Positions 11,428-25,371 of a stretch of 64,000 nt of DNA are shown piece by piece. The stretch lies in assembly GCA_951812805.1 (NCBI GenBank), contig CATOSZ010000003.1, forward strand, positions 822,557 through 886,556, in the 5' to 3' direction. The position numbers were made by a program, and so were the translations under genes. This DNA comes from an uncultured Alphaproteobacteria bacterium. GTDB lineage: Bacteria > Pseudomonadota > Alphaproteobacteria > GCA-2731375. Every line of letters begins with the position of its first letter. The stretch's first letter is position 1. The notes below the pieces were generated by a model. That model was given only the letters and a program-made list of their open reading frames with translations. It ran no database searches and was not told the origin of the DNA.

Positions 11428-11447
11428 CAGCGGACCATGGTCCGCTG
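11428..11447. promoter_or_regulatory. palindrome copy 1, candidate late activator site
   Basis: A perfect 20-bp palindrome, CAGCGGACCATGGTCCGCTG, lies 34 bases upstream of the protease gene on its minus-strand side and about 68 bases upstream of the small + strand gene at 11,515. A degenerate half copy (CGGACCATGG) occurs at 11,399-11,408. The 16-bp core is identical to two other sites in the prophage. It may serve one or both divergent transcripts. Confidence 0.7.
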
Positions 11448-11828: not shown

Positions 11829-11844
11829 GCGGACCATGGTCCGC
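11829..11844. promoter_or_regulatory. palindrome copy 2, candidate late activator site
   Basis: GCGGACCATGGTCCGC, perfect 16-bp palindrome, followed by TGCAAATAG. It lies 60 bases upstream of the + strand gene at 11,905. A weak -10-like GAATAG at 11,870-11,875 is about 33 bases from the palindrome centre, similar to the spacing at copy 3. Confidence 0.65.
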
Positions 11845-11904
11845 TGCAAATAGAGATTGAAACATGGTGGAATAGGTCCATCCTCAGCCAAGGACCAGAT
11901 TTCC

Positions 11905-12132
11905 ATGGACGAAAAAACGCTCCGCCACGCGCTCCGCGACATCGGCCTCGCTCTCAACGCCAGCCATAACACCGTGGCCACCGACCGCCCCGACGCCGAG
12001 CCCGACGAGATGAGCTGGCGCATCGATCACAGTCAGGAAATCGCGTTGGTGTGCGAACTGGAGCGCATGTTGTTGCCTAGCACTGATAGCGTCCCCGTAT
12101 ATACAGATCGTAGTACTGGCCCTTCGAGCTAG
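11905..12132 (+). CDS. hypothetical small protein (75 aa)
   Basis: MDEKTLRHALRDIGLALNASHN opens a helical protein with an acidic middle (DRPDAEPDEMSWRIDHSQEIALVCELERMLL). AAGGA 10 bases before the ATG is a possible ribosome site. It is the only gene directly downstream of palindrome copy 2 and converges on the metallopeptidase gene. Bases 12,133-12,183 after it hold no gene. No family recognised. Confidence 0.45.
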   Translation: MDEKTLRHALRDIGLALNASHNTVATDRPDAEPDEMSWRIDHSQEIALVCELERMLLPSTDSVPVYTDRSTGPSS

Positions 12133-12183
12133 CCGACAACAAACCCTCGAAAATACGGGCCGGCATACGGCAGAACGTACATG

Positions 12184-13383
12184 TTACGATCTTCGTTTGT
12201 TGAACGGGATTACTTGAGCGCCGGAGGCATGTGTAGAGTCAGTGCCTTTCAGGGATGGAAAGTCCACCACATCCGCTTCGCTGGCGCCAATGAAGCCGCG
12301 AGGCAAGCCGCATAGGGACTCTACGTCAGAACCATACAGGCGAAAGTCACTGAGTAAATCACCCTTCGTTCGCACGCCTTCGTCGAGCAGCAGGCGGACG
12401 GACCGCGCCAGAAGGCACGGCTCCTCCGAGGCCAGCACATCGTCAAGCGGCTCACTCTTGCGCCACCCGCGCGCGCTGTAGTGCTTCCAAAGGCGGCGCT
12501 CATATTCTCCGCTTGTTATCCCGAGATTGGAGCAGCGCATCATCATTGCACCCACCGACACCTTCCAGCGCTCCTTGAGGGCCGCAAAGGCATTGAGCGA
12601 CGGCGACCAGATCTCCGAAGCGAAGCTCTCGGCTGGCATCAGGAATGCTCCAGCAAAATAGAAGGCCTGCCGCTCGATTTCCTTGAAGTCGCTTGTGCTG
12701 TTCAGTGTCCGAGCGCTTAGGTGGCGATGAAGAACCAGGTGTCCGAGTTCGTGCGCCGCATCCATTCGGGAGCGAACGCATGTCGCTTTATCGCAGGCGA
12801 TCAACGTGTAGGGACGACCGTCAGCCGTCGACCAATTGGATACGCCGTCCATCTTCGTTGTACCAACCTCTTCTTTAACCACGACGGTGCCCGCGTTCTC
12901 CAGAACGCGGATCACATCCGAGATCGGCCCTTTCCCGAGACCCCACAGAGTCCGGCACTCGTTAGCGATGCACTCGATGTCGTCATCGTGGACTTCCCGG
13001 TGGTCTTCGGTATCAAGCTTCGGAATATTGGGCTCGGGCAAGTCGACCCACTCCTGAAGGGTAAGCGAGATATCCTGGGCCCAGCGGAGCCGAGCCTGGC
13101 TCCGCTTCCGCACGCTTTGAGTCGTGCTCGCCATCGAACGGAAGAACATCGGGGTCGGACCATGATCCGGTTGATGCCGAAGAAAGAAGGCAATCGGAAG
13201 GTTCGTCGCCTTCGCCAGTGCCTCAAGAGCGTCTGGCTCCGGAGACTGGTCCCCAGCTTCCCAGCGGGAAATGCTCGAACTGGTCCTGTTGATCAGATCG
13301 GCGAGGGCAACTTGCGTGAGTTCTCTGGAGTTTCTCGCCTCTACCAGCCGCTCCGCTTGAAACCCCGGCGTCCCATTGCGCAT
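12184..13383 (-). CDS. XRE-family regulator fused to ImmA/IrrE metallopeptidase
   Basis: 399 residues. Residues about 8-65 are a helix-turn-helix (LVEARNSRELTQVALADLINRTSSSISRWEAGDQSPEP). Residues about 140-260 form the ImmA/IrrE (COG2856) domain with the zinc motif HELGH at 211-215 and downstream Glu/ExxAFYFAGAFLMP typical of the third ligand helix. Proteins of this type cut phage or stress repressors and many act as metalloprotease antitoxin or defence components. The C-terminal 140 residues are of unknown fold. Starts 9 bases after the partner gene. The pair is lower in GC than the phage structural genes, suggesting acquisition as a cargo unit. Confidence 0.88.
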   Translation of the reverse strand: MRNGTPGFQAERLVEARNSRELTQVALADLINRTSSSISRWEAGDQSPEPDALEALAKATNLPIAFFLRHQPDHGPTPMFFRSMASTTQSVRKRSQARLRWAQDISLTLQEWVDLPEPNIPKLDTEDHREVHDDDIECIANECRTLWGLGKGPISDVIRVLENAGTVVVKEEVGTTKMDGVSNWSTADGRPYTLIACDKATCVRSRMDAAHELGHLVLHRHLSARTLNSTSDFKEIERQAFYFAGAFLMPAESFASEIWSPSLNAFAALKERWKVSVGAMMMRCSNLGITSGEYERRLWKHYSARGWRKSEPLDDVLASEEPCLLARSVRLLLDEGVRTKGDLLSDFRLYGSDVESLCGLPRGFIGASEADVVDFPSLKGTDSTHASGAQVIPFNKRRS

Positions 13384-13392
13384 TGTTGTCTC

Positions 13393-14070
13393 CTATGCGT
13401 CCCCCTCAAGGGGGCTGGTTGTCGAGGCCCGGCGCTTGAGCTTTGGCACTGCGTTGTCCTTGACCTCGACCGGAGCTTCCATCAATGACCGCGCCGCTGT
13501 CTCAAGATCGTGGTAACGACCGATTAGGGCGGTTAGCGACTCCAACTGCACCCAGTCGGACATGTCTGTGCGTGGGATACCGAGACCCACGAACGCAGGA
13601 ACGCTTGGGTCACCGCCCCGACCATACGCCGTCGAAACCAGCATTCCGCATAGTCCGTCAGCGGGCGGCTCCTCAACCTTGATGAGCAAGTCGAGTTGCA
13701 CCGGGCTGAGCCAGGCGTTCAGGGCTGACTTTTCTTTTCGGAACCGGGTAGCGCGCGGCGGGCCGCAATGCGTCTGGATGTTGCAGCGGATCAAACAGAC
13801 GCCTTCGCTATTCACGAGGCTGTAGCGACCGCCAGGCGGCTTCGTATGGCAGGGAAGCGGCGCAAGCCCTGCATCCTGCGCGGCGATTCGGAAACCCTCT
13901 TCCGCGTAGGCGTGCCTGAGTTGCCCAAGCATGTTGCGCCGCTCCGGCTCCGCTATGCTCTGTTCCGTCAGACGCGCCGCCTTCATGAAGGCGGCGTCGA
14001 ACTGTTCGAGCACGCCTTGAAAAAACGACACTGGGATGGTGCGGACAATGCGGTCAATTGAAGCAGACAT
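13393..14070 (-). CDS. unknown partner of the ImmA/IrrE protein (225 aa)
   Basis: MSASIDRIVRTIPVSFFQGVLEQFDAAFMKAARLTE... is a soluble protein with no recognised domain. Visible features are an LRHAYAEEGFRIAAQDAG helix, three Cys between residues 70 and 105 (CHTKPPGGRYSLVNSEG, CLIRCNIQTHCGPPRATRFRK) and a C-terminal VPAFVGLGIPRTDMSDWVQLESL segment. Transcribed first, 9 bases before the HTH-metallopeptidase. Its own upstream region carries a repeated TTGCGTTA element. The gene pair is not part of Mu core functions; it is probably a toxin-antitoxin-like or defence cargo, which is an inference from architecture only. Confidence 0.7.
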   Translation of the reverse strand: MSASIDRIVRTIPVSFFQGVLEQFDAAFMKAARLTEQSIAEPERRNMLGQLRHAYAEEGFRIAAQDAGLAPLPCHTKPPGGRYSLVNSEGVCLIRCNIQTHCGPPRATRFRKEKSALNAWLSPVQLDLLIKVEEPPADGLCGMLVSTAYGRGGDPSVPAFVGLGIPRTDMSDWVQLESLTALIGRYHDLETAARSLMEAPVEVKDNAVPKLKRRASTTSPLEGDA

Positions 14071-14089
14071 GGGCTCTCCGATGGTCGAA

Positions 14090-14127
14090 TTGCGTTAAAG
14101 CGGATGTAGCATGTAAATTTTGCGTTA
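14090..14127. promoter_or_regulatory. direct repeat TTGCGTTA x2, candidate operator of cargo pair
   Basis: TTGCGTTA occurs at 14,090-14,097 and 14,120-14,127, exactly 30 bases apart (three helical turns), 20-58 bases upstream of the 13,393-14,070 gene. On the coding strand they read TAACGCAA. The XRE domain of the downstream protein is a natural candidate ligand. The rest of 14,071-14,205 shows nothing else recognisable. Confidence 0.45.
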
Positions 14128-14205
14128 TCAAGGGCGGCAATATCATCGCCCCATAATCACCAACAACCACTGTCGCTTGTCAGCTCCCATCGCCCTGTCC
14201 CTCAA

Positions 14206-15048
14206 TCACAGACTGGCCCCCATCCAGCGAACTTCGCCAAGGGTCTCCGCGTCGTCGGGCCAAGGAAGCGATTCAAGGGCGGGATTGTCGCTGGCCAGAA
14301 GCCACGCGCCCCCGTCGTCCTTGTGCGCCCGCTTGACCACCATCCCCTCCCACGTCGTCACGACGAAAATGCGATCGGCTCTCCGCCGCCGCCTTGTCTT
14401 GTCCACCAGGACAGAACAGCCATCCGGCAAGGTCGGTTCCATCGACTCGCCCTTGACGCCAATCACCAGGCACTGCGTCGGATCGATAGCGCGTTTGTCC
14501 AGCCAGTCTCGGCGGAACCAGGCCTGGCCGTCAGGTGGGGCGTCCTCTATGAACGCACCGCCACCGGCCGCCGCGGCGATCTGAAAGACGCCGACGGGGC
14601 GGGAGCTCGGAGGGTTGACGTCGTCGTTTGCCGGAGGAGCGAGCGCTGAAGGGTCGGCGAGGGCGGACGGTCGTGACGGGCGAATGATCCCTCGCCGTTC
14701 TTCGAGTATAGGCCATAGGTCCTCAGGAATCGGATCGCCGCCAGCGTCCGCCGTAAGGCGCGCCAGTCCTTGTGCTGAGGCTTCCAACCCCCGTAAGTGA
14801 GACGGTGGGACAGCGCCAGCCTCGCGAGCCTTGTTGATAGGGTCGACTGCCTCACGTGGCGGGCCGATATAGAACTCCAAGCCAAGAGCGCGGCAGATAT
14901 CGACGGTCCTTGAGAGTCTGGGGTCATGACCGGTTAGCACGCTACGGATTGCATCTCGCGGCAGCCCCGCAGCCGTCGCCGCGCCAGCAAGCGACCGCCC
15001 CTTGGTGGCGTCAAGCAACGCTTCACGAAATTTCTCCACAGCCTTCAT
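14206..15048 (-). CDS. prophage repressor, LexA/CI-type S24 peptidase
   Basis: 280 residues from ATG 15,048. Residues 1-65 are a DNA-binding domain (SLAGAATAAGLPRDAIRSVL as turn-helix). Residues 150-280 are the S24 peptidase fold: self-cleavage site Ala161-Gly162 (AAAAGGGAF), catalytic Ser202 in KGESMEPTLPDG and Lys239 in GMVVKRAHK. It should keep the early operon silent and be inactivated with RecA under DNA damage. It is transcribed away from the early operon across the palindromic operator region. The frame upstream to 15,216 overlaps the operators and is unlikely to be used. Confidence 0.9.
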   Translation of the reverse strand: MKAVEKFREALLDATKGRSLAGAATAAGLPRDAIRSVLTGHDPRLSRTVDICRALGLEFYIGPPREAVDPINKAREAGAVPPSHLRGLEASAQGLARLTADAGGDPIPEDLWPILEERRGIIRPSRPSALADPSALAPPANDDVNPPSSRPVGVFQIAAAAGGGAFIEDAPPDGQAWFRRDWLDKRAIDPTQCLVIGVKGESMEPTLPDGCSVLVDKTRRRRRADRIFVVTTWEGMVVKRAHKDDGGAWLLASDNPALESLPWPDDAETLGEVRWMGASL

Positions 15049-15087
15049 AATGGCATTTATGCCACGGTCCCCGCGATGAGGAAAGGG

Positions 15088-15159
15088 TGTCGAAAATTTT
15101 CGACAATCCTCTTGTCCATCCGTCGAATTTATTCTATGTTCGTCGCATGTATTCGACGG
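15088..15159. promoter_or_regulatory. operator region between repressor and early operon
   Basis: A perfect 18-bp palindrome TGTCGAAAATTTTCGACA lies at 15,088-15,105. A second inverted repeat has arms CCGTCGAAT (15,120-15,128) and ATTCGACGG (15,151-15,159). All four arms share GTCGAA/TTCGAC. The last arm overlaps the first codons of the early gene at 15,147, so binding there could block both initiation and elongation of the early transcript. Confidence 0.75.
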
Positions 15160-15401
15160 AACAAACGCTACGCCTCTCGGACGCCTACTGTGGTGCCCGC
15201 AAAATCGCGCGGTCAACGCTTGGGCGGAAAGCCGTTGGCAGCTCGACCGTGTTCGAGCGGATTGAACACGACTTGGCGACAGTCAGGGTGATCAAACGCC
15301 TCATCGGGTACATCTCTGACCGCTGGCCCGCCGACACCCCCTGGCCTTCGGACATCCCGCGCCCCGCGCCATCATCGACCGATCCCAAGGAGGCGGCGTG
15401 A
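15147..15401 (+). CDS. early regulator candidate (Cro/Ner position), 84 aa
   Basis: MYSTEQTLRLSDAYCGARKIARSTLGRKAVGSSTVFERIEHD... is a small basic protein with a C-terminal VIKRLIGYISDRWPADTPWP tail. This pattern (short HTH-like helix pair, then a helix ending in SDxWP) is frequent in small phage and plasmid regulators of Alphaproteobacteria. First gene of the rightward early operon, divergent from the repressor, where Ner or Cro would sit. Start codon chosen at 15,147 because the earlier GTG at 15,087 lies inside the operator palindrome. Confidence 0.6.
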   Translation: MYSTEQTLRLSDAYCGARKIARSTLGRKAVGSSTVFERIEHDLATVRVIKRLIGYISDRWPADTPWPSDIPRPAPSSTDPKEAA

Positions 15402-15808
15402 TGGGTATGGTGAAGACCAAGCGCCGCTCGATGAGCGCTGCCCGCCGCCGGCGCATCTTCTCCGCCCATGACGGCGTCTGCGGCTACTGCCACGAACTCA
15501 TCGAGGACGGCGCGGCGTTCGAGATCGACCACGCGGTTCCCCTTGCCCTTGGCGGTACGGACGACGACGGCCCGAACGCCTATCCCATTCACGGCGACTG
15601 TCACCGGCTCAAGACCTTCGGCCGGAAGGGTGGGTCCCGCCTGCCTTCCGATATTTCGGCCATCGCCAAGGCGAAACGGTTGCGGGCGAAGCGCCTGGGC
15701 CTCGCCCGTCCCAAGCGCTCGTGCCTCACGGATCCCCGCTGGGTGCGCAAGGTGGACGGGACGGTGGTTCCGCGCGCGCCGGCATCCGAGCACGGGGAGG
15801 CGGCGTGA
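15401..15808 (+). CDS. HNH endonuclease
   Basis: 135 residues. AAGGAGG at 15,387-15,393 sets the start at ATG 15,401. Zinc/HNH motif: CGYCHE (residues about 26-31), then FEIDHAVPLALGGTDDDGPNAYPIHGDCHRLKT, giving the His-Asn-His metal finger with a second Cys. Basic tail (AKAKRLRAKRLGLARPKR). In phages such proteins nick or cut DNA during packaging or act as homing-like endonucleases; its early position argues against packaging. Coupled to flanking genes. Confidence 0.85.
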   Translation: MGMVKTKRRSMSAARRRRIFSAHDGVCGYCHELIEDGAAFEIDHAVPLALGGTDDDGPNAYPIHGDCHRLKTFGRKGGSRLPSDISAIAKAKRLRAKRLGLARPKRSCLTDPRWVRKVDGTVVPRAPASEHGEAA

Positions 15809-18320: not shown

Positions 18321-18976
18321 GCATGGGGGATTTGGTGCGACAGGATCTGCCATGGTGGGACTTGGCTCCAGAATTATCGCCCTATGCGACGGCGCTCGAT
18401 CGGGCGGTGCGGCGGCTCGAGATCGCGGAATACGCGATCGGAGGGCGTGGCCCGCGTGATGGCATCCGCGAATCCGCCACGTTGACCGGCTGGGATTTTG
18501 GCGTGAAACCGGCGGCGGTGCGCCGGTTGTGCGCGCGCGTATGGAGCCTGCCGGTGAGGGATTGGCTGCCGGTGCTGCTGGCGGATGAGCCGCCGGCCTA
18601 TATCAGTGGCGAGGAGCGGCGATTGACGGCTGCCCTCTACGCGCAGCGTTTCCAGGGTGGCCGGCGCCCTGGCGTTGGCGATGCCCGTGCCGCCGAAGTT
18701 TTCGCGTGCTTCTCTGTTTCGGCGAGCGTGATCGGTCGTGCGCGTCGCTCGCTTGTGTTCTGGCCTTCGGAGGACCGGCTCTGGTCGGCTCTCGGACGAA
18801 AGACGGAACCGGCACCCTACGGCCTGCGGAAGGAAATCGAGGCCTTCGGTCTCTATATCCGGCACGATACGGAACCGGAAATTGCGTCGCGGGCCCTGGG
18901 TCGCCTGCATGGTGTCGCCGCGCCTCCGGATCTTGTGAGGCAGTGGACAGGCCAAATTCAGGCGGTGTGCCCGTGA
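18317..18976 (+). CDS. hypothetical early phage protein (219 aa)
   Basis: MSMGDLVRQDLPWWDLAPELSPYATALDRAVRRLEIAEYAIGG... is Trp/Arg rich with no membrane segment and no recognised motif. It is the gene directly before the transposase and overlaps both neighbours, so it is co-translated with transposition genes. A transposition or replication accessory role is a guess from position. Confidence 0.6.
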   Translation: MSMGDLVRQDLPWWDLAPELSPYATALDRAVRRLEIAEYAIGGRGPRDGIRESATLTGWDFGVKPAAVRRLCARVWSLPVRDWLPVLLADEPPAYISGEERRLTAALYAQRFQGGRRPGVGDARAAEVFACFSVSASVIGRARRSLVFWPSEDRLWSALGRKTEPAPYGLRKEIEAFGLYIRHDTEPEIASRALGRLHGVAAPPDLVRQWTGQIQAVCP

Positions 18977-20859
18977 TGCGTCTCGCCGCCAGGCCGGGCG
19001 GTAAGGGCCCCTGCACAACCCCTGACCCGGTCGTTCCCGGCCCTGTCACGCCCCCTGAACCGGCTTCCGGTCTCCGGGCGGGTCAACAGCCCAGCCCCCC
19101 GGCGGCCGCGCCCGATGCCCCAGCGCCCTCGACAGCTTCGCCCGCCGCCTGGGAGACCGCCGACGAGGCGAACCGCGAGCGGGCGCGGGCGCGCCTGGCG
19201 GCGGTGGTGCGTTCAGACGCCTTACATGCGGCCGGCATGCCGCGCGGCGAGGCCGACCGGGTGGCGGCCGGGGAGAGCGGCGTTTCGCCCCAGGCGGTCG
19301 CCGGCTGGCGCCGCCGGGTGGCGGGCCTGCCCGCCGGCGGCCGCGTGGCCGCGCTGCTGGACCGGCCGGGCCGGGGCCGGCGGGCCGCGCTCGACCTCGC
19401 CCCGGAGATGGCCGAGACGGTCGAGGCCCTGCTCACCGCCGGCGGCAAGCACTGCACGGCGAGCCATGCCCGCCGGGTCCTCGCCGCGCGCTTCGGCGAG
19501 GGCGTCACGATACCCACGATATCCGCGATTACGCGCTGGATGCGGCGCTTCCGGGCCGAGCGGGCCCGCGAGCTCTCGGCGGTCCGGCGGCCCGACCGCC
19601 ACCGGGGCGCGCGCATGCCGGCCTTCGGGCGCGGCGGCGGCGACGCGTTCGCGCTGAACGCGCTCTGGGAACTGGATTCGACCCCGGCCGACGCGATCTG
19701 CGCCGACCCGCTCACCGGCGAGTTCCGCCGGTATGCCGTCGTCGGCTGCATCGACGTGTTCAGCCGCCGGGCCATGGTGCTGGTGACGCCGACCAGCCGC
19801 GCGGTGGCGATCGCGGCGCTGTTGCGGCGCTGCCTGCTGGAATGGGGCGTGCCGCTCGCCGTGAAGACGGACCGGGGCAATGACTACGTCAGCCAGCACG
19901 TCACCCGGGTCCTGGCCGACCTGGAGATCGAGCACGATATCTGCCCGCCCTACACGCCCGAGGCCAAGCCCTATATCGAGCGGTTCTTCGGCACGCTGAC
20001 ACGGGACCTGTTCGCCCACCTGCCGGGCTTCACCGGGCACAATGTCGCCGAGGCCCAGGCGCTGCGAGAGCGCGAGGCCTTCGCCACGCGGCGCGGCAAG
20101 AAGAAAAGCAAGAAGGCCGGCGCCGAGAAGAGCGAAGAGCGGGCGGCCTTCGAGCTCCACTTGACGGCCGACGAGCTGCAGCGGCGCTGCGATCTCTGGC
20201 TGTCGTCCGAATACGAAGTGCGCGGCCACCGTGGCCTCGACGGCGAGAGCCCCCGCCAGCGCGCCGCCTCGTGGACCGGCGAGGTGCGCTGGATCGAGAC
20301 CCCGCGCGCGCTCGACGCCCTGTTGGCGCCGGCGGCGGGCCAGAGCGGCACGCGCGTTGTCACGAAGAAGGGCATCTCGGTCGGCGGCATTCGCTACATC
20401 GCGGCGGAGCTCGGGCCGCACATCAAGGAGCGGGTGCGGATCCGCGAGGACGCCGCCGACCCGGGCCGCCTGCACGTCTACCGGATGGACGGCAGGTTCC
20501 TCTGTATCGCCGAGGACCCGGGCCGCACCGGCCTGTCCTTGCGCCAGACGGCCCTGGAGGCCAAGGCGCTGGCCAGGCGGCACGACCGGGTGGCCCGGGC
20601 CCATTCCCGCAAGCTGCTGCGCCGGCGCAAGCCGGAGGCGGCGATGGACGAGGTCTTGGCGCATGGCGAGGCCGAGGCCTCGAAGATCGTCGTCCTGCCC
20701 CGCGCGGGCACGGCGCACGAGACACCGGCGCTGCAACAGGCGGCCCGGGCCGCCGAGGCCACCGAGAGCGCGGCCCGCGCCGCCGATCCGACGACCCCGC
20801 CGCGCGGCGGCCGCGCGCTCGCCGCCGCCGCCAAGCTCTATCTGGAGGACGAGACATGA
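18976..20859 (+). CDS. A: MuA-type DDE transposase
   Basis: 627 residues from ATG 18,976 (sharing its A with the preceding TGA). It catalyses strand transfer of the phage ends for integration and replicative transposition. N-terminal DNA-binding part (residues about 60-210) with HTH segments; catalytic core with Asp234 (WELDSTPADA), Asp299 (VKTDRGNDYVSQH) and Glu335 (EAKPYIERFFGTL); C-terminal beta domain (VVTKKGISVGGIRYIAAELG) and a basic tail (KALARRHDRVARAHSRKLLRRRK) likely contacting MuB. Length is close to Mu A (663). Confidence 0.95.
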   Translation: MRLAARPGGKGPCTTPDPVVPGPVTPPEPASGLRAGQQPSPPAAAPDAPAPSTASPAAWETADEANRERARARLAAVVRSDALHAAGMPRGEADRVAAGESGVSPQAVAGWRRRVAGLPAGGRVAALLDRPGRGRRAALDLAPEMAETVEALLTAGGKHCTASHARRVLAARFGEGVTIPTISAITRWMRRFRAERARELSAVRRPDRHRGARMPAFGRGGGDAFALNALWELDSTPADAICADPLTGEFRRYAVVGCIDVFSRRAMVLVTPTSRAVAIAALLRRCLLEWGVPLAVKTDRGNDYVSQHVTRVLADLEIEHDICPPYTPEAKPYIERFFGTLTRDLFAHLPGFTGHNVAEAQALREREAFATRRGKKKSKKAGAEKSEERAAFELHLTADELQRRCDLWLSSEYEVRGHRGLDGESPRQRAASWTGEVRWIETPRALDALLAPAAGQSGTRVVTKKGISVGGIRYIAAELGPHIKERVRIREDAADPGRLHVYRMDGRFLCIAEDPGRTGLSLRQTALEAKALARRHDRVARAHSRKLLRRRKPEAAMDEVLAHGEAEASKIVVLPRAGTAHETPALQQAARAAEATESAARAADPTTPPRGGRALAAAAKLYLEDET

Positions 20860-22099: not shown

Positions 22100-22181
22100 T
22101 CGCCCACGACTGTCAATCAGCATTTAATTCTGACCCCCTATCGGCGTGCAAAATTGACCCCCCCCCCCTTGCTTCGACGGA

Positions 22182-22288
22182 GGTTGTCCCGGTAGTCCAC
22201 GGGAGGGCCCCGCGCGGCTTCGTGTAGCGCTTTGCGTTACGCGGAGCGAAGCCGCGTGGGAGGGGCCTGTGGGCCCACCGGGACAACC
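22182..22288. repeat. 107-nt imperfect hairpin inside the IS21
   Basis: Outer arms GGTTGTCCCGGT (22,182-22,193) and ACCGGGACAACC (22,277-22,288) are perfect complements; inner arms CGCGGCTTCG (22,213-22,222) and CGAAGCCGCG (22,247-22,256) are also perfect, with further GC pairing between. A run of 11 C lies just upstream (22,158-22,168). No coding capacity. It may be a small non-autonomous repeat element or a structured RNA captured by the IS. Confidence 0.7.
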
Positions 22289-22351
22289 GGGCCGGCGGCG
22301 GAACGTGGGGATCAGGTGGGGTTCTTGAAGTGGCAATGAGCTTTTGAAGTA

Positions 22352-22653
22352 GTGTCCAGACTGTTCTGCAAGTTTGTCATGGCTGCCGATGAGGGCCACC
22401 GGCATGCCTGGCGCGGAGATTTCGATTGCTCGGAGCGCCAGGCATGCCGAGCCGCCGTCAGGCGGCTTTCTGGATGCGTTCGCTTTTGCTCTCCTTGAGA
22501 TGGATCATGTTGAGCTAGCGGTTGGCATCCAGCCAGTCCTCATGGATTTCGATCGCGAGAGCCCGGACCAGCCGGAGGCAGCTCATCCACCCCATCGGCC
22601 CGGACTTGTGCCCCAGCTACGAAACCCCTTTTGCAGAACAATCTGTACAGGAC
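22352..22653 (-). pseudogene. internally deleted IS256-family remnant
   Basis: Terminal inverted repeats: GTGTCCAGACTGTTCTGCAA at 22,352 and, on the other strand, GTCCTGTACAGATTGTTCTG from 22,653. Between them the minus strand encodes an IS256/Mutator transposase C-terminus (RLVRALAIEIHEDWLDANR, a stop, then LNMIHLKESKSERIQKAA). Almost the whole transposase gene is missing. It sits inside the IS21 passenger segment. Confidence 0.7.
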
Positions 22654-22681
22654 CCGTTTTGATTTGCCCGCCTTTGCGATG

Positions 22682-22730
22682 AAAGCCCCCAGGCTGATTG
22701 GCTCCATATAGCGGATCAGCCTGGGGCTTT
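22682..22730 (-). terminator. hairpin after istB
   Basis: Arms AAAGCCCCCAGGCTGAT (22,682-22,698) and ATCAGCCTGGGGCTTT (22,715-22,730) pair over 16 bases with one bulged C and a 16-base loop. It begins 13 bases beyond the istB stop on the transcribed strand, where a terminator is expected; a T-run is short. Confidence 0.6.
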
Positions 22731-22743
22731 GCTTACAGGGCGG

Positions 22744-23475
22744 CTACTTTTGTCGTCGCTGTTTGCTTTGTGCGAAGCGGTAAGACATGTTGCCTGTTTC
22801 GATGATTGCGCAGTGATGCGTTACACGATCCAGCAACGCGGTTGTCATTTTTGCATCTCCGAAGACGGAGACCCATTCCCCGAACTCCAGATTGGTGGTG
22901 ATGATGACGCTGGTCTTCTCATAGAGTTTGCTGATCAGGTGGAACAAGAGCGCACCGCCGGATTTGGGGAATGGGATATAGCCCAGTTCGTCGATGATGA
23001 CGCAATCCATGGCCGTCAGTTGCCGGATGATCTTGCCGGCGTTGCCTTCGGCCTGTTCCTTGATCAGCGCATTGATCAGATCGACGGCGTTGAAGAAACG
23101 GACCTTCTTTCCCTGATTGATCAACAGCGTCCCCAGAGCAATGGCGATGTGGGTTTTGCCCGTACCGGTTCCGCCCACCAGAATGAGGTTGTGGGCCTCC
23201 TGGGTGAACTGCCCTGAGCAGAAGGGGTCGATTTGCGCTTGGGTGACGGCGGCTAGGCCGTAATCGAAAGTGGCGAAGTCCTTATGGTGGGGGAACTTCG
23301 AGGCCCGCATTTGGTGCTGGATAGAGCGCACCCGGCGCTCTACAGTCTCGGCGTCGATCAGTTGCTTTATCGCAGTGGTCAGACTTGGCGGCTTGCGCGC
23401 GGCCAGCAAAGCTTCGGCGCAAGCCGCCATTCCATACAGCCTCAGGGCGATCAGTTGGTCTATCAAAGCTTTCAT
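22744..23475 (-). CDS. istB: IS21 ATP-binding protein IstB
   Basis: 243 residues from ATG 23,475, overlapping the istA stop (ATGA). DnaC/DnaA-like helper ATPase of IS21 transposition: Walker [10 protein letters not shown] and the downstream [12 protein letters not shown] Walker B with [20 protein letters not shown]-terminal helical region [24 protein letters not shown] is typical for IstB. Appears intact. Confidence 0.95.
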
Positions 23476-24971
23476 GCGACGGCCTCCCCGGCAACGCACA
23501 GCGTCTCATAGCGCTTGCAGTCCGCTTCGGGCCGCAAGGTCAGTTGCGGATAGGCGTGGCTCTCGCCCCATGGCGCGATGACCGGCTCCACCAGTTGGTT
23601 GATCAGATTGATGATGGCCGGAAGGCGCAGCGTGTTCTGCTCCACGGCCAGTTCACAGGCTATCTCGACCACCTCGATCCCGTGATCCTGGGCCAGCAGG
23701 AGCAGATCGACAAACTCCCGGTCCCCGCCTTTGCCGGCCATGTAATGCGCCCTGACCCGGTGCATCGCCTCAGGCAATTGCCAACCCACAAAGGGCGCGC
23801 CATCTCTCAGCGCGCCGGGCTTGCGGTCGAGTAGGGGCAGGTAATGCCAGGGCTCGAAATAGCTGGCGTTGCGGGTAAAGCGGCGCTTGTGCTCGGCAAT
23901 CACATTCTGCCCTGACACAACCACGATCCGGTCCGCATAGGCGCGCAGAGAGACAAGCTCCCCGGCGAACCGGGAGGGGACGCTATAGCGATTGGTGGCA
24001 TATTGGACCAGACAGGTAGAGCGGACACGAGCGGCCTTCTCAACATAGCCGTCAAAAGCCCGGCCCAGGGGACGCAGTTCGGCGCACTCGTCTGCGAACA
24101 CGTCCGAGATCTTGCGATCCGATTGTTCGGGGTGGGCGCGATTCGCCAATTCCTCGCAGCGCAGACGCAACCAGCCGTTCAGCGCATCCAGATCGTCAAA
24201 GGCGGGCTTGGGCGCAAACAGCTGTCCCCGCAGGAACCCAACCTGGTTCTCAATCTGACCCTTCTCCCACCCCGCCGCGGGTGTGCAAGCAACCGGTTCC
24301 ATCACATAGTGGTTCATCAACGCCAGAAAGCGCGGATGGAACACACGGTCCTTAGAGCGCGAAACATAGGTTACCATCGTCTTGGGGTTGTCGATGATCA
24401 CCCGGCGCGGTACGCCGCCATAGAAAGACATCGCCCGTGCAAAGGCGTCCAGCACCATCTCCTGAGATTCGCTGGGATAGGCAACAACAAAGGGCTTGCG
24501 GCTATGACATAGGCGGAAGTGGGCAACCTTTACCTTCTGCTCGACACCGCCCAGGACAGCGTATTCCGTGCTCCAGTCAAACTGGAGCGCGTCACCTGCC
24601 GTAAAGTGCAACGGAATGAACGCATCCCCCGATCCGGCGCCAGAACGCTTCAGGTCGCGGACAAACCTCTGAACCGTCGAGTAGGATCCGCTATAGCCTT
24701 CCGACACAAGCTGCTCATAAAGCTTCTTGGCCGTCCGGCGCTCACGGCGCGGGCGCCCCAGGTCCTGCTCAAAGAGCGCCCGAAGCCGGCTGGCGAAGCC
24801 ATCGCTAAGCTTACGCCGGACGGGTGAAACGCGCCGCTGATAGCTCGGTGGATCGCCGTCCTTCAGATACTTCTTAATCGTGTTCCGCGACAAACCAGTC
24901 TGACGAGATACAGATCGGATACTCCGACCCTCCCGTAATATCCAACGTCGGATCTTCAATACGCTTTCCAT
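23472..24971 (-). CDS. istA: IS21 transposase IstA
   Basis: 499 residues from ATG 24,971, which follows GGAGGAAAGAGC; an upstream GTG (24,998) lies before that ribosome site. HTH ([26 protein letters not shown]) then DDE integrase-like core with [14 protein letters not shown] (first Asp), [15 protein letters not shown] (second Asp) and [19 protein letters not shown] (Glu). C-terminal beta domain ([26 protein letters not shown]). Appears intact, so the element may still move. Confidence 0.95.
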
Positions 24972-25371
24972 CAATACCACCTGCTCTTTCCTCCGCACTG
25001 TTCCGTGCGGATGCTAGCGTTCCAGGTGGGTCAATTCTTACCGCTCATAACCCACCAAAGTGGGTCAGTTTTGCATGCCGATTCACAGCCCACGACCTCC
25101 GCCGCCAGGTGGCGGGCCTGCGTGAGCTGCTGGCGAGCGGCCAGATCACCACCTTCGACCTGACGCGGGGCCTGGAGGCCATCGAGGAGGCCGCCGACCG
25201 GGTGGCGAAGATCGAGGCGGCCCCGGTGCCCCTGGCGCGGCGGTGCGCCGGTGACGAGGGCGTCGTCGATTTCCGGGCCCGTAAGGCGGCGCGCGAGCTG
25301 GAGGGCTATCTGGCGGCGCGCGGCGTGACGGCGACCGCCCGGGCGCCGGAGGACGATCCGGAGGGCGCGGC

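Follow-up and report, generated by a model that had tools for sequence, protein, structure and literature searches.

A Prophage-Borne RosmerTA Toxin-Antitoxin Pair with a Candidate Operator and a Sliding-Clamp-Binding-Like Motif in Its Toxin

The gene pair and its prophage

The DNA analyzed, a contig segment of 64,000 nucleotides (C3:822557-886556) referred to here as the window, harbors most of a Mu-like prophage of ~40 kb, which carries two adjacent genes, rmrT and rmrA, separated by 9 nt (Table 1). The pair sits between the structural genes, which are located to its left on the minus strand, and the gene of the S24-type repressor. A previous reading, made from the letters of this DNA only (the sequence-only reading), had described an XRE-ImmA gene with a 225-residue partner in a region of lower GC content than the structural genes. 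Both open reading frames (ORFs) were confirmed, and the GC content is 0.60 to 0.62 around the pair versus about 0.69 to 0.72 in the structural genes to its left.

Table 1. Features of the rmrT-rmrA locus and its surroundings (window positions unless residues are indicated)
Feature	Position	Strand	Basis or remark
rmrT, toxin, 225 aa, first gene	13393-14070	-	PADLOC PDLC03934 RmrT, E 6e-53
rmrA, antitoxin, 399 aa, second gene	12184-13383	-	PADLOC RmrA, E 9e-164
RmrA XRE HTH	residues 15-67		HTH_3, Pfam 5.7e-10
RmrA M78 peptidase	residues 162-285		Peptidase_M78, Pfam 7.2e-15
QLDLL, rmrT codons 125-129, candidate sliding-clamp (DnaN) binding motif	13684-13698	-	Consensus, conservation, enrichment
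RmrT C-terminal tail, codons 203-225 and stop	13393-13464	-	Alignment, models
Operator box 1, AACGCAA (candidate)	14120-14126	-	Alignment of relatives
Operator box 2, AACGCAA (candidate)	14090-14096	-	30 bp from box 1
rmrT-rmrA promoter (predicted)	14103-14131	-	TTGATA (14131-14126), 17 bp, TACATC (14108-14103)
S24-type repressor	14206-15216	-	
MuA-type transposase	18706-20859	+	rve, Mu-transpos_C, phrog_310

The ends of the prophage were set by alignment with a sibling Mu-like prophage on the same contig (C3:1034343-1074009; L003 to L006), which was compared with window positions -4679 to about 35360. The prophage begins with TGTAGCGGGGCAGAAA... at window position -4679 and ends with ...TTTCTGTCTCCCCACA at ~35360; its termini are of the form TG...CA and constitute imperfect inverted repeats. 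The comparison revealed (i) zero differences in the segment from 11829 to 14610, which includes the RosmerTA block, (ii) an identity of 93.5% for the structural genes, and (iii) differences in the N-terminal half of the repressor and the control region (14661 to 15313). Because of the latter differences, the two prophages are probably heteroimmune, and since two probably heteroimmune phages have an identical toxin-antitoxin block in common, the data point to a recent exchange of this block. The antitoxin from either prophage copy should serve both.

A perfect palindrome, GGACCATGGTCC, is found at window positions 11432, 11831, and 28987 and also twice in the sibling prophage stretch. A gene with an HNH endonuclease domain (15398 to 15808, plus strand; Pfam HNH, 1.2e-07) is close to the early region of the prophage. 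An insertion at 22110 to 25088 contains two frames, of 508 and 251 aa, which, judged by reading the ORFs, presumably encode the transposase and the ATPase helper of an IS21-type element; the sibling prophage has the same element ~350 bp away in the reversed orientation, which indicates two insertions.

Assignment to the RosmerTA family

PADLOC models for both components matched the two proteins (Table 1), and, as judged by sequence, the pair is almost certainly a prophage-borne RosmerTA toxin-antitoxin system. The 225-residue RmrT found no match in Pfam, NCBIfam, or PHROGs and had been considered an unrecognized, new effector; the RmrT match rules this out and places it in a described family, so that no new effector family is involved. 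In RmrA, the HELGH motif of the peptidase (residues 211 to 215) is intact, and H211, E212, H215, and E237 are invariant in the alignment. Among solved structures, the closest sequence match of the peptidase is CapP.

At all 16 homologous loci with a readable neighborhood, originating from alpha- and gammaproteobacteria, viral contigs, and plasmids, rmrA follows the toxin gene, and none lacked the metallopeptidase; the partners thus stay together, the check that the sequence-only reading had proposed. The pair is rare, since it was present in 3 of 385 genomes of the class. Identity to a Pantoea pair is 24% for the toxin versus 40% for the antitoxin, and on the basis of such comparisons the toxin is evolving faster than the antitoxin. 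Single-sequence toxin scans of genome and viral contigs, as well as a phage tblastn search, gave no match; detection of toxin homologues needed alignments of near and far subsets, and the divergence of the full alignment (A1) was too high for pattern scans.

Several related loci deserve mention. Both genes are truncated at L029 (viral contig). The same genome contains another RmrA-like gene (L094; C5:404144-405130) of ~32% identity, whose upstream partner belongs to another toxin cluster and has NQGSLF in its middle. Several RosmerTA pairs from the group of the window and the Acinetobacter group (L015, L036, and L058) adjoin genes for UmuD/UmuC-type polymerase V, and the polymerase at L036 itself carries QLNLF, a motif of the clamp-binding type.

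RosmerTA systems consist of diverse RmrT toxins and an ImmA-domain RmrA antitoxin and act in phage defense (PMC10440598). They were found in Acinetobacter baumannii prophages (PMC12421847), and their activity in Streptococcus thermophilus is narrow (PMC12322248). The arrangement in the window resembles that of Gordonia phage Kita, in which a phage-borne toxin gene also lies beside a gene for an antitoxin with HTH and ImmA/M78 domains (PMC10440598). The families, the pairing, and the conserved operator described below support the earlier view of the pair as toxin-antitoxin-like or anti-phage cargo of the phage. That it is mainly an addiction or prophage-stability module, of no useful defense against other phages, is an explanation that could hold for all toxin-antitoxin pairs of mobile elements, and it is in line with a relative on a viral contig (L031) in which the toxin is split into two frames and the antitoxin is intact. 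However, other RosmerTA systems tested protect against phage (PMC10440598; PMC12322248, with a narrow range), and we consider a role restricted to addiction improbable.

Candidate operator and promoter

The direct repeat upstream of the pair, TTGCGTTA, is present at 14090 to 14097 and 14120 to 14127 with a spacing of 30 bp, and on the coding strand box 2 ends ~20 bp before the toxin start. Two AACG[CA]AA boxes at exactly 30-bp spacing were found in 13 of 15 relatives, and in the remaining two, one box is clear and the other is degenerate. In shuffles, such a box pair occurred in at most 0.35% of cases (probability ≤0.0035) per sequence. Since it is conserved across relatives, the repeat is more than a chance occurrence, and its proposed role as an operator stands as a candidate.

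The predicted promoter elements are conserved across relatives, as exemplified by TTGATA-17-TATTAT at L034; the -10 element of the window copy is weak, and generic promoter and terminator scans gave no signal above chance. Box 1 abuts TTGATA and box 2 lies after the -10-like hexamer, so that the two boxes bracket the -10 element, a predicted arrangement typical of autorepressed promoters. Autoregulation is usual in toxin-antitoxin operons, and because of this and of its HTH domain, we infer that RmrA is the protein that binds the AACGCAA boxes; the conserved boxes at 30-bp spacing provide a concrete candidate operator for it. The idea that the pair has its own transcript is supported by the conserved promoter, but the S24 repressor gene is upstream on the same strand, and read-through from it may occur.

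The position next to the S24 repressor could also suggest a switch of the phage itself, with RmrA as a second repressor or an antirepressor and with its peptidase cleaving the S24 repressor or that of another element, given that peptidases of the ImmA/PprI/CapP type cleave repressors (PMC10904395). The CapP/CapH and PprI/DdrO switches (PMC10904395) likewise bring an M78 peptidase together with an XRE HTH repressor. Unlike these switches, which consist of two separate proteins and, in the CapP/CapH type, control an immune operon, there is one fused protein here, its partner is RmrT, and a CBASS operon is absent. Furthermore, the same pair, in the same order and with the same operator, exists on plasmids and elsewhere without this repressor, and the sibling prophage keeps the pair unchanged while the N-terminal half of its repressor differs. 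Such a switch is consequently very improbable, and the cleavage of repressors of other elements, which the sequence-only reading had raised, found no support at the window locus.

A clamp-binding-like motif in the toxin

The sequence QLDLL in the middle of RmrT agrees at four of five positions with QL(S/D)LF, the consensus of bacterial proteins that bind the beta sliding clamp in its hydrophobic pocket (PMC9690074). At residues 125 to 129, near relatives possess QLDLL, QLDLF, QPDLL, or QYDLI, and the gammaproteobacterial branch has TPDLF or TPDMF, without Q; in the alignment of 13 sequences, D127 is invariant and L128 is at least 90% conserved. Two AlphaFold2 models were obtained with a mean pLDDT of 68 and 72, and the motif is inside their least confident segments (residues 99 to 135 and 108 to 135; pLDDT <50), in agreement with a flexible loop that is exposed and predicted to be disordered.

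We also inspected the toxin partners of far more distant RmrA proteins for this motif. Divergent toxins were found to contain, at the same place, QLSLF (L052), QLDLF (L051 and L069), QFDLF (L097), QLGLF (L076), QMELF (L071), QIDMF (L074), QLKLDL (L070), and QPSLL (L047). These toxins have no BLAST link to the window toxin or are linked to it only via intermediates. Matches to the regular expressions Q..[LMI][FL] or QL.L.[LF], which were chosen after the motif had first been seen, were counted at residues 110 to 155 and amounted to 18 of 51 non-redundant RmrT proteins versus 2.1 expected from shuffles (maximum of 6 in 1,000). The toxins in this count are relatives of one another; when each BLAST cluster was given a single weight, the value was 3.2 versus 0.6 expected, the shuffle maximum being 3.3 in 1,000. 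The same expressions gave only 1 to 6 matches in other stretches of the toxins and 9 matches among 235 neighboring ORFs used as a control (3.8%), and there was no motif excess in the RmrA antitoxins. The strict form QL[SD]L[FL] was present in 9 of 84 toxins versus none of the 235 neighbors. Many RmrT proteins are without any match to the regular expressions.

The literature offers two points of reference. (i) RipA (Spr1630) of Streptococcus pneumoniae, a Rosmer toxin held in check by the XRE-ImmA protein RipB (Spr1629), interacts with DnaN, and its suppressors H183, L185, Y249, Y333, and L371 are in the hydrophobic pocket of the clamp (PMC12795458). In the literature searched, this was the only article in which "Rosmer" occurs together with "sliding clamp," and the word "motif" is absent from it. 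The window pair resembles RipAB in its Rosmer family and XRE-ImmA antitoxin and in that RipA acts on DnaN and RmrT has a clamp-binding-like motif. In contrast, the window antitoxin scored 169.6 bits, below the 335-bit cutoff of the Spr1629 equivalog (NCBIfam NF052239), and the window toxin has no BLAST link to partners of Spr1629-type antitoxins. Eight antitoxins passed this cutoff (L059, L095, L107, L109, L112, L121, L126, and L127); several of their partners contain QLVLNL, QLQLEL, QLELEL, or QLDLF at residues 141 to 152, and others have stretches without Q, namely, FLTLF (L112), ILSIF (L121), and SILFNI (L095). (ii) SocB of Caulobacter crescentus, a toxin that blocks elongation via a clamp-binding motif, is a precedent for the action proposed here, in which a toxin fills the DnaN pocket via a short motif (PMC9690074). 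The described architecture of SocA/SocB (type VI, ClpXP dependent) is unrelated to that of RmrA/RmrT, and the two systems do not share family membership.

These data suggest that the window toxin and many distant relatives share a motif resembling those that dock on the clamp and that the cell would be stopped by jammed DNA replication. Overall, we regard docking of RmrT on DnaN as somewhat more probable than not.

Toxin core and C-terminal tail

The closest structural neighbor of the toxin core is EcoRV (Z 6.8, with Z below 8; rmsd 4.3; 137 residues aligned), followed at lower ranks by SwaI, Hjc, DrdV, BglI, RecU, and HincII, all PD-(D/E)XK enzymes. Foldseek gave no match for the toxin at E < 0.001, the toxin profile had one insignificant match only among the sequences of solved structures, and no member of Pfam PDDEXK_5 (PF11645) was found in the genomes searched. 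A degenerate nuclease-like core in RmrT is a reasonable guess from these models.

These neighbors are relevant to the possibility that RmrT has a different mode of action, such as that of a nuclease of the PD-(D/E)XK fold or one at the membrane, with QLDLL being structural or incidental. Apart from the structural neighbors, it is favored by the many RmrT proteins in which the motif is missing and by the Kita toxin, which has predicted membrane segments and depolarizes membranes (PMC10440598), so that Rosmer toxins have no one common mechanism. The window RmrT, unlike that of Kita, is in another toxin family (PDLC03934), has the clamp-like motif, and comes without a membrane description. As for a nuclease, no catalytic D...(E/Q)xK is conserved in the strands at positions 82 to 100 of the toxin alignment (A9), and a Z score under 8 is no proof of fold. 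The conservation of the motif in a loop predicted to be disordered and its enrichment at this site speak against an incidental QLDLL. We therefore judge another route to be unlikely, but worth keeping in mind.

The C-terminal tail of RmrT is basic and predicted to be disordered, yet D205, P209, and L211 are invariant in it; the tail may be the site recognized by RmrA.

Proposed mechanism and its significance

Our preferred explanation, to which we assign a probability only a little above even, is that RmrA represses the operon and neutralizes RmrT and that RmrT, once free, blocks replication by docking on DnaN. RmrA would bind the two AACGCAA boxes that bracket the -10 element and keep the expression of rmrT-rmrA low, and it would also neutralize RmrT, by either binding or cleavage. 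During infection or replication stress, RmrA would be overwhelmed or inactivated and RmrT freed; the trigger may be single-stranded DNA, which activates the analogous CapP and PprI (PMC10904395). The exposed QLDLL of freed RmrT would then occupy the hydrophobic pocket of DnaN in the host, displace polymerases, and stop replication, which would abort the cycle of the invading phage at the cost of the cell. RmrT may also penalize loss of the prophage.

The RosmerTA kind of system is already known, and what this study adds is the hypothesis of a clamp motif in RmrT toxins, together with the conserved operator. The motif matters because one motif site in toxins that BLAST cannot link provides a single testable hypothesis on toxin action for many RosmerTA systems. 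It would also explain the published genetics of RipA, in which the DnaN pocket was found and no motif was named. We see about an even chance that the RmrT families (PADLOC 03931, 03933, 03934, 03938, 03940, 03942, and others) are largely sliding-clamp-docking toxins with a degenerate nuclease-like core and the motif in an exposed mid-protein loop. If this is true, RosmerTA would be a widespread anti-phage system that acts by occupying DnaN, and pneumococcal RipA would be one case of a general rule.
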